A stretch of DNA of 64,000 bases, from assembly GCA_040755695.1 (NCBI GenBank), contig JBFMAK010000002.1, forward strand, positions 186,001 through 250,000, read 5' to 3'. A program made the translations under genes and the position numbers. The stretch's first letter is position 1; every line of letters starts with the position of its first letter. Shown piece after piece: positions 41,235 through 60,767 of the stretch. The stretch is from Candidatus Diapherotrites archaeon (GTDB taxonomy: Archaea; Iainarchaeota; Iainarchaeia; Iainarchaeales; 1-14-0-10-31-34). The notes below the pieces were generated by a model, which saw nothing but the letters and a program-made list of their open reading frames with translations, searched no databases and had not been told where the DNA came from.

Positions 41235-41329
41235 TAGCGGGGAAAGGATTTGAACCTTTGACCTTCGGGTTGCTCAATAATAAATTTTTTTATGAGCCCG
41301 ACGGGCACTCCTGGCTGCCCCACCCCGCT
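41235..41329 (-). tRNA. Initiator tRNA-Met (CAT) with 20-base intron
   Basis: Minus-strand AGCGGGGTGGGGCAGCCAGG start with an A1-T72 pair and GGG-CCC anticodon stem (TCGGG/CCCGA), both initiator features. The loop reads CTCATA, then an intron of about 20 bases (41271-41290; ends ambiguous by one base because of repeated T), then A38. The intron sits at 37/38, the canonical archaeal site. T-arm AAAGG TTCAAAT CCTTT; discriminator A, CCA not encoded. Confidence 0.92.
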
Positions 41330-44056: not shown

Positions 44057-44944
44057 ATGCTTTTATCTGAAAACAGAATTGGTGAAATAGTTAAATTAAG
44101 AAGAGAGGGCCTTGCGTACAAAAAGATTGCAAGGTATTTGAACCTTAGCAGTGCCACTGTTTATAAGTACGCCAGGAAAATCAAACTTCCCACAGAAAAA
44201 TTGGTCAAATTAATAGAAAATGAAGAATTAAACAAAAAAAGATTTTCAGAAAAATATGCTGTTGAAAAGGAAATAAAGAAACCAGAATTAAATGAAGAGT
44301 TAGCAACTATTTTAGGGCACTTATTTTTTGATGGAAGCGTCCAGAAACCAGTTAACTCAAAGTACAGGATTGATTACACCAACTATTCATTTGGATTAAT
44401 AAGAAATTTCAAGAGATTGATGTTCAAATTGTTTGGATTAAATCCAGCAAAGATAAGAGTTTTTTACAGGAAAACAAAATATTTTGGTGTACAATTTTAC
44501 TCGAAAAAAACTTGGAGCTTCCTTAAACAATATTCTAACTCGTTCAGCACTAAAGAAAATATTGGTGTTCCATTCCAAATTATGAATGCAAACAAAAAAA
44601 TAAAAGCTGCTTTTCTAAAAGCTTTTTGGGATGACGAAGGGGCTATTTGTTATGACGGAGAATTGAGCGCGAGCTCTAAGAGTGAAAAGATGATTAATGA
44701 TTTGATTGAATTGCACAATTCTTTTGAAGTAAGCTGCCGTAAAACAAAATCACACGAAGTTTACTATTTAAGTATACGCAGGAATAAAAACAATTACATT
44801 AACTTTTCTTCTAGAATAGGTTTTACTTTAGGTAAAGTTTCCAGGGGATACAATAAAGGTAAATTTAAAAATAACATATTGACCCAATTTATTAAATCCC
44901 ATAATTGGGCCCGTAGCTCAGTTGGCAGAGCATTGGCCTTTTAG
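44057..44944 (+). CDS. LAGLIDADG endonuclease with N-terminal HTH, running into tRNA-Lys
   Basis: 295 residues. N-terminal HTH (YKKIARYLNLSSATVYKYARK, core residues ARYLNLSSATV). The two LAGLIDADG motifs are ATILGHLFFDGSV and KAAFLKAFWDDEGAI, both with the catalytic-type acidic residue. The last 13 residues (NWARSSVGRALAF) are simply the translated 5' half of tRNA-Lys; the TAG stop spans anticodon base 36, base 37 and the first intron base. It is likely a homing endonuclease, or derivative, linked to tRNA introns. Confidence 0.8.
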   Translation: MLLSENRIGEIVKLRREGLAYKKIARYLNLSSATVYKYARKIKLPTEKLVKLIENEELNKKRFSEKYAVEKEIKKPELNEELATILGHLFFDGSVQKPVNSKYRIDYTNYSFGLIRNFKRLMFKLFGLNPAKIRVFYRKTKYFGVQFYSKKTWSFLKQYSNSFSTKENIGVPFQIMNANKKIKAAFLKAFWDDEGAICYDGELSASSKSEKMINDLIELHNSFEVSCRKTKSHEVYYLSIRRNKNNYINFSSRIGFTLGKVSRGYNKGKFKNNILTQFIKSHNWARSSVGRALAF

Positions 44945-45017
44945 GAAAGGCAAGCATTATTTTTGTTTTCTTTCACATGTAAGCCAAGGGTCCCGGGTTC
45001 GAATCCCGGCGGGCTCG
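44907..45017 (+). tRNA. tRNA-Lys (TTT) with 38-base intron
   Basis: Acceptor GGGCCCG (44907-44913) pairs with CGGGCTC (45010-45016), discriminator G. D-arm GCTC/GAGC, anticodon stem TTGGC/GCCAA, mature loop CTTTTAA with anticodon TTT, T-arm CCGGG TTCGAAT CCCGG. The intron is 44944-44981 at position 37/38 (one-base ambiguity). CCA is not encoded. The endonuclease gene overlaps its first 38 bases. Confidence 0.93.
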
Positions 45018-45486: not shown

Positions 45487-45551
45487 TAAAAAAATTCAAG
45501 GGAAATGTGCTTGCGGCTTCTTTTAAAAAGAGAAAAAATGTTAATTATATA

Positions 45552-46184
45552 ATGAATGAAGAAATTAATGCTTCTGAATGTGAACTTATAGGTGCTATAA
45601 TCGGTGATGGTCACATCCACAAAAAAGGCCCTAAATATTATGTTGGGGTTACGGGCAATATTCAAACAGATAAAAAATATTTTGGTTATCTCTCTAATCT
45701 TATCAAAAAAACATGGAATAAATCTCCACAAATAAGAAAGAGGGCTGGCGGGCTAAGATTAAGATTTTACTCTAAAGAGGTCGTAGAGAGACTTATTAAA
45801 AAATTTAGTTTGCCTTTCAATTTAGGCAAATGTTACAAAGTTAAAATACCTGACGTAATTGCTTCTGATTGGGGGTTGTTGAGGCACACTATTAGGGGAA
45901 TTGCTGATACTGATGGTTCAGTTTTCACTGCAAATAAACCCGGTTCACCAAATTATCCTTCTATTGAAATAACTACAACAAGCAGATTTTTAGCCAGTCA
46001 ATTAAGGAATATTTTGAACAAACAAGGATTTAAAGTGGCAAAAATATGGGGCTACAAATCAAAGGTGTCGCGTTATCCTGCTTATAAAATTCCTTTAAAT
46101 GGCAGGAAAAACCTTGAAAAATGGCTTAAAGAAATAGGTTTTTCAAATCCATATAAACTAAATAAAGCCTTGAATGCCCTTTGA
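45552..46184 (+). CDS. LAGLIDADG homing endonuclease-like protein
   Basis: 210 residues from ATG 45552 (an upstream GTG at 45507 adds 15 less likely residues). Motifs CELIGAIIGDGHI and LRHTIRGIADTDGSV each end in the acidic DG pair, typical of two-motif monomeric LAGLIDADG enzymes, here without an HTH. Downstream regions PAYKIPLNGRKNLEKWLKEIGF close the fold. The stop lies 45 bases before tRNA-Phe, which carries introns. Probably cuts an intron-less tRNA allele; it may instead have become a maturase-like factor. Confidence 0.85.
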   Translation: MNEEINASECELIGAIIGDGHIHKKGPKYYVGVTGNIQTDKKYFGYLSNLIKKTWNKSPQIRKRAGGLRLRFYSKEVVERLIKKFSLPFNLGKCYKVKIPDVIASDWGLLRHTIRGIADTDGSVFTANKPGSPNYPSIEITTTSRFLASQLRNILNKQGFKVAKIWGYKSKVSRYPAYKIPLNGRKNLEKWLKEIGFSNPYKLNKALNAL

Positions 46185-46229: not shown

Positions 46230-46361
46230 GGGAAGGTAGCTCAGTTCGGGAGAGCACACGATAGACTCAAGTCATTATTTTGGTTTGGTTTATGTGAAGC
46301 TGAAGCTCAGGATTGGGCAGAGACCGTGGTGTCGCGGGTTCAAATCCCGCTCTTCCCACCA
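46230..46361 (+). tRNA. tRNA-Phe (GAA) with two introns
   Basis: Acceptor GGGAAGG (46230-46236) pairs with TCTTCCC (46351-46357), discriminator A, and CCA is encoded (46359-46361). D-arm GCTC/GAGC; T-arm GCGGG TTCAAAT CCCGC; variable loop GTGTC. A single intron gives no loop with T33. Removing 46261-46298 (38 bases, position 30/31) and 46306-46322 (17 bases, position 37/38) leaves CACGG CTGAAGA CCGTG, a perfect stem with anticodon GAA. Confidence 0.85.
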
Positions 46362-60492: not shown

Positions 60493-60767
60493 GTGTGGGC
60501 TGCCTGGAATCGAATCGGCTGATAGCTTTAAAGCTTTCTTGCTTTTTTCTTGCTTCCGTTAACCCAAAAGCATTAAATTATAAAGCCACCGTTGCTTTCT
60601 TCCAAACCTGGCGGGTTCACTCCATACTTTAATCTCATGGGGCAGAAGGTCATGGATTAAAACAAGGGCTTAAAGCTTGAGCGCAATCCTCAGCCAAGCT
60701 TTTAGATCCCTGCATGAAGCGGATTTCAGGCTACAGAGGACCGCTGACCCTCCAATCTAGCCCACAA
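60493..60767 (-). ncRNA. Signal recognition particle 7S RNA
   Basis: About 275 bases on the minus strand. The 5' end TTGTGGGCTAG pairs with the 3' GCCCACAC. The 5' domain has the archaeal pattern with GTCCTCTGTAGCCTGAAATCCGC (cf. CCCCTGTAACCGGAAACCGCC), and a central GAACC...CCAGG...GGAAG...AGCA series is the SRP54-binding helix 8. No protein frame. Ends are set by the pairing and uncertain by a few bases. Confidence 0.9.

Follow-up and report, generated by a model that had tools for sequence, protein, structure and literature searches.

Collaborative homing is an established mechanism for the endonuclease F-CphI and the psbA intron (PMC6083498). In cyanophage S-PM2, the free-standing endonuclease gene adjoins the intron-bearing target gene psbA, and the group I intron blocks cutting of the carrier's allele (PMC6083498). 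The locus described here lies in a 64,000-nt stretch of the genome of an uncultured Candidatus Diapherotrites archaeon, which we call the window. It has the same layout, and its introns may protect in the same way, but it differs from the phage system in three ways: the presumed target is a tRNA gene of a cell, in an archaeon; the introns, two in this one gene, are short and of the protein-spliced bulge-helix-bulge (BHB) type; and the endonuclease is a LAGLIDADG protein with predicted cutting activity rather than one of the Endo VII type.

Other described systems share parts of this arrangement. SegF and SegG of T4-like phages, which act in intronless homing, are likewise encoded between two conserved genes and target the neighbor, but no intron takes part in that case. 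The LAGLIDADG enzymes of archaeal rRNA introns, I-Tsp061I (2dch) and I-DmoI, have the same fold as the protein encoded here and are likewise linked to introns of structural RNAs, but they are intron-encoded, whereas the gene in the window lies outside the introns, upstream of the tRNA. Compared with the multi-intron tRNA genes of Thermoproteales and Caldiarchaeum, the gene described here belongs to a small-genome archaeon with an apparently alpha4-type splicing endonuclease and is linked to a neighboring endonuclease gene. The mechanism of archaeal tRNA intron transposition is unknown, according to a review (PMC4090602). We found no report in the open-access literature tying homing endonucleases to archaeal tRNA introns, although this does not prove novelty.

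We propose, with a probability of roughly 0.6, that the introns of a functional two-intron tRNA-Phe gene, in which splicing is probably ordered, and the LAGLIDADG gene upstream of it make up a mobile unit that spreads by collaborative homing. The adjoining LAGLIDADG gene is the most informative part of the locus, which has the following features.

45507 to 46184, + strand: free-standing LAGLIDADG_3 homing endonuclease gene (predicted), clade A, likely start ATG at 45552 (PF14528, 1e-10; Foldseek matches 7qsu, I-Tsp061I, and I-DmoI)
46230 to 46361, + strand: tRNA-Phe(GAA) gene with encoded CCA; exons match intronless orthologues
46230 to 46260, + strand: exon 1, positions 1 to 30, from alignment with intronless orthologues
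46255 to 46258, + strand: 5' strand of the 30/31 BHB central helix, C25 to A28, covarying with 46293 to 46296 in eight genes
46261 to 46298, + strand: intron 1, 38 nt, site 30/31, missing in intronless orthologues; BHB with 4/4 central pairs and a 5-bp intron helix
46293 to 46296, + strand: 3' strand of the same central helix, TGTG, covarying with 46255 to 46258
46299 to 46305, + strand: exon 2, GCTGAAG, positions 31 to 37, with anticodon GAA; invariant in relatives
46306 to 46322, + strand: intron 2, 17 nt, site 37/38 (junction ambiguous by 2 nt); relaxed BHB with 3/4 central pairs
46323 to 46358, + strand: exon 3, positions 38 to 73, with T arm and acceptor strand, within the RF00005 match
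46358 and 46359 to 46361, + strand: discriminator A73 and encoded CCA, respectively

We read 46230 to 46361 as a functional tRNA-Phe gene with two archaeal BHB introns and predicted splicing. The RF00005 match covers 46230 to 46358 on the + strand at 44.3 bits, against a gathering score of 29. With both introns removed, the cloverleaf is intact, its anticodon matches, and the anticodon arm reads CACGG-CTGAAGA-CCGTG; intronless tRNA-Phe orthologues from other families of the same order carry this arm uninterrupted as CACGG[C/T]TGAAGACCGTG. Six further genomes (G001, G015, G020, G028, G050, and G058) have both introns, each at the site that it occupies here. The intron 2 junction in the window is ambiguous by two bases at an AG repeat; since the junctions in G050 and G058 are unambiguous, it can be fixed at 37/38.

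An earlier note on this DNA, made from the sequence alone, had proposed a tRNA-Phe(GAA) with a 38-nt intron at 30/31, a 17-nt intron at 37/38, a 7-nt middle exon, and a restored stem and loop. The RF00005 match, the intronless orthologues, the unambiguous relatives, and the six other double-intron genomes bear out each of these points. It was also right that no single intron gives a normal anticodon arm: no one deletion yields U33 together with a matching stem, and the relatives confirm this. A second complete tRNA-Phe gene, with this copy unexpressed, would have spoken against the note's reading, and no second Phe(GAA) gene was present among the 33 tRNA hits (an incomplete tRNA set) of the 1.30-Mb, 99.85% complete assembly. 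Two other calls for this region were rejected. A Val(GAC) built from CACGA-TA-GAC lacks U33, and a tRNA-Leu is a miscall made by ARAGORN when introns are allowed; default ARAGORN overlooks the gene.

BHB introns are excised by the tRNA splicing endonuclease. In the host, this enzyme appears to be the product of one 176-aa gene that matches both PF02778 and PF01974; it is about as large as the solved 171-residue chain 1a79 and looks like an alpha4-type enzyme. That type is associated with few introns in a review (PMC4090602); the window's genome, with an alpha4-like splicing endonuclease as the only one found, has multiple introns at noncanonical sites.

The BHB at 30/31 is made up of A23-G24/C32-U33, then C25-A28/UGUG, then the five-pair intron helix, with CGA and AAG as its 3-nt bulges. 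The eight genes compared comprise the tRNA-Met(CAU) of the window's genome, whose intron is likewise at 30/31, and seven tRNA-Phe genes. In them, 98.9% of cells hold standard pairs and both sides have changed in 7 of 11 pairs; none of 500 shuffles reached the covariation score. A script run over 31 introns found 4/4 central pairs at all 30/31 sites, all 18/19 sites, and three of four 4/5 sites, while several 37/38 sites, the one in the window's tRNA-Phe among them, had only 3/4. Measured against the motif of two 3-nt bulges around a 4-bp helix, the 30/31 site is thus complete and the 37/38 site relaxed. The earlier note had expected two BHB sites, one of them noncanonical; the two sites stand, with the nuance that the noncanonical one at 30/31 is well formed and the canonical one at 37/38 is the relaxed one.

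Folding of the precursor for BHB motifs, which the note had suggested as a check, returned a BHB-like motif at 30/31 in the full precursor, with a folding energy z of -3.9 (0 of 200 shuffles were equally low). With intron 1 removed, the anticodon stem with the intron 2 hairpin folds. The 30/31 BHB uses bases 25 to 28 and 32 to 33, and the 37/38 BHB uses 27 to 31 and 32 to 35 with other partners; because bases 27, 28, 32, and 33 are common to both with different partners, the two motifs are mutually exclusive. From this competition, and because the anticodon-stem helix that intron 2 uses is absent as long as intron 1 is in place, we infer ordered splicing, in which the splicing endonuclease would remove the 30/31 intron and afterwards the 37/38 intron. 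The order of removal that the note had claimed thereby gains indirect support.

The product of the upstream gene is a predicted LAGLIDADG homing endonuclease, as judged by comparison of its fold and catalytic residues. Its AlphaFold model (pLDDT 88.8, pTM 0.85) is that of a two-repeat enzyme, with two LAGLIDADG motifs, the alpha-beta-beta fold twice, and predicted catalytic residues Asp34 (45606 to 45608) and Asp136 (45912 to 45914). Among the best Foldseek matches were I-DmoI, I-Tsp061I, and the TliVMA intein endonuclease, and I-Tsp061I was the sole PDB match of the profile. The gene ends 45 bp upstream of the tRNA; a free-standing endonuclease gene adjoins the intron-bearing tRNA-Phe in five other double-intron genomes too, and in most retrieved loci the 3' end of its relatives lies near a tRNA. 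A single weak match to a viral contig was also seen.

In a 45-row endonuclease tree, clades correspond to intron sites: clade A to 30/31 plus 37/38, clade B (G002 and G012) to 18/19, and clade C (G001, G003, and G055) to 4/5. Eight of the nine clade A genes lie directly upstream of tRNA-Phe, and the ninth is at a contig end; the six that accompany both introns have both catalytic Asp residues intact. In G070, both Asp residues have become Gly, and the tRNA-Phe carries another intron, at 22/23, where hand placement gives a TGGG/CCCA helix; placement at 23/24 scored poorly as a BHB. In G068, an intact-looking clade A gene stands beside an intronless tRNA-Phe whose anticodon stem differs (ATACG/CGTAT). 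We had considered this gene broken by a TAA inside the match, but the stop sits upstream of a plausible start. Clade C shows decay, with a stop in the G003 gene and an apparent frameshift in that of G001; decayed endonuclease genes are an expected stage of the homing life cycle. A tRNA-Lys-type endonuclease clade goes with 18/19 in G026 but with 37/38 in G063. The tRNA-Phe of G001 (L183, G001:C144) has four predicted introns, at 4/5 in the acceptor stem and at 18/19, 30/31, and 37/38, and every border fits the BHB motif; the published maximum is three introns per tRNA gene (review PMC4033280).

The clade A tree joins G020 and G050 with support, in conflict with the tree of the host marker SerRS, which places G050 with G051, G015, G058, and G029. 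An endonuclease tree constrained to keep G050, G015, and G058 as one group was rejected at p-AU = 0.00075, a value that is indicative because the group was chosen after the trees had been seen. By this conflict between trees, the endonuclease gene moves horizontally between lineages. In a separate observation, LAGLIDADG genes of one clade in G042 and G003 (L095 and L097) lie directly upstream of a tRNA that we read as Arg(GCG) and that is interrupted in its D arm, possibly another endonuclease-intron pair.

We compared 51 genomes, leaving out those in which tRNA-Phe was unfound or at a contig end. A LAGLIDADG gene just upstream and tRNA-Phe introns were both present in 14, the gene alone in 1 (G068), introns alone in 5 (G006, G051, G056, G061, and G064), and neither in 31; agreement in 45 genomes gives a Fisher p of 1.2e-7, with introns classed by eye, so that small errors are possible. 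Permutation within families gave p = 221/20000 = 0.011. Independent pairs supported by the SerRS tree ran 4 or 5 to 0 in the expected direction, too few to reach 0.05, and the sister genomes G058/G029, G026/G044, and G055/G053 differ jointly in endonuclease and introns. Where present, the LAGLIDADG gene fills the gap between tRNA-Lys and tRNA-Phe. Most endonuclease-less genomes with the tRNA-Lys cluster have a short gap there (about 5 to 215 bp from the nearest tRNA-Lys), and the endonuclease-less G044, G065, and G066 have a longer one (401 to 684 bp). This joint presence and absence across related genomes suggests that such selfish genes may spread tRNA introns.

Under collaborative homing, the endonuclease would cut uninterrupted tRNA-Phe genes within the anticodon arm, at the near-palindrome CACGGCTGAAGACCGTG. 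The two introns would destroy this cut site in the allele that carries the endonuclease gene and so protect it, and repair of the cut would copy the gene and the introns together by co-conversion. Near-palindromes are sites of a type that two-repeat LAGLIDADG proteins are able to recognize. In tRNA-Phe, both the anticodon arm and the D arm are near-palindromes and may serve as endonuclease sites, and an intron at 18/19 interrupts the D arm close to its center. If collaborative homing operates here, its known range would grow beyond the group I intron of a phage to include protein-spliced introns of cellular tRNA genes. A linked, phylogenetically mobile endonuclease with clades that match intron sites makes the question of intron transposition testable.

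The alternative that survives best, although we consider it unlikely, is that the introns have nothing to do with the LAGLIDADG gene: mobile genes would simply land in the tRNA-Lys/tRNA-Phe cluster, and introns would be gained and lost by drift as elsewhere in archaea. The five genomes with introns and no adjacent gene would fit this, as would the small number of phylogeny-controlled contrasts and the LAGLIDADG genes that adjoin intronless tRNA-Thr and tRNA-Lys. Against it are the strength of the co-occurrence, which holds within families too, the match of different endonuclease clades to different intron sites, and the three sister pairs that differ in both at once.

Against homing itself stand G068, the five genomes with introns alone, the tRNA-Lys-type clade that goes with two different sites, the small number of independent contrasts, and the endonuclease genes next to other intronless tRNAs. 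LAGLIDADG genes in many families are convergent at the 3' end of a tRNA-Thr, nearly always GGU (L082-L089, L091, L093, L094, L096, and L099); some of their frames cross the tRNA in antisense, and the GGU tRNAs are mostly intronless. Several tRNA-Lys-associated genes likewise adjoin an intronless tRNA-Lys, including tRNA-Lys(CUU). In these cases the gene abuts or overlaps the tRNA, and its insertion could itself destroy the site. In the window's genome, most intron-bearing tRNAs lack a LAGLIDADG_3 match in their vicinity, so homing need not account for every intron. A gene that overlaps its tRNA is found in the window itself, upstream of the tRNA-Phe unit.

44057 to 44944, + strand: second free-standing LAGLIDADG_3 gene, with an N-terminal helix-turn-helix (PF14528, 2.8e-7; HTH_7, 1.5e-6)
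44907 to 45017, + strand: tRNA-Lys(UUU) with a 38-nt intron at 37/38 (44944 to 44981), read from the sequence (RF00005, 59.4 bits)

The 3' end of this second gene overlaps the 5' part of the tRNA-Lys, so placed that the TAG stop codon lies across the 37/38 splice site; the gene's relatives adjoin tRNA-Lys and tRNA-Phe. We tentatively extend collaborative homing to a wider picture, which we think slightly less likely than not, in which this archaeal order harbors a free-standing LAGLIDADG family specialized for tRNA genes, with a clade for each tRNA and site, and the introns are both immunity marks and footprints of successive invasions. If this is true, the four-intron tRNA-Phe of G001 would record several rounds of invasion, and the clade-specialized endonucleases would provide a DNA-level mechanism of archaeal tRNA intron gain.

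A second alternative, which we judge improbable, is that the introns serve host defense only: loss of the target site of endonucleases or integrating viruses (the idea of Randau and Soll) would have favored them, and the endonuclease would not have brought them in. Such protection has been proposed for integrating elements (PMC4090602, PMC3293823), and several genomes do have introns and no endonuclease, but the same intron pair accompanies a horizontally moving endonuclease across distant families, which joint transfer explains more easily. We give very little weight to the LAGLIDADG protein being a maturase that aids folding or splicing and travels with the introns for RNA reasons: some LAGLIDADG proteins are splicing factors, the fold matches include the bI3 maturase (2ab5) and I-AniI (1p8k), and the G070 frame is open despite its lost catalytic residues with an intron still there, but the tRNA-Met of the same genome has a 30/31 intron with no LAGLIDADG_3 match nearby, the same kinds of intron occur in several genomes that lack the gene, and excision of BHB introns falls to the splicing endonuclease, for which this genome has a gene.

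Other tRNA introns were seen in the same genome. The tRNA-Met(CAU) at G000:C2:9112-9217 (in L005) has a 31-nt intron at 30/31, and the BHB helix there, CACC/GGTG, is compensated. The introns of four different tRNA genes (G000:C4:26214-26358, C1:271354-271472, C4:44177-44333, and C1:394243-394402) have a similar CCTTTTTCTTTTT...AAAAAGAAAAAG hairpin in common, as though a single intron family had moved from one tRNA gene to another. In the window, an initiator-like tRNA-Met(CAU), interrupted by an intron near 37/38, lies at 41235 to 41329 on the - strand, and an archaeal SRP RNA (RF01857, 126.1 bits) lies at 60493 to 60767, also on the - strand.
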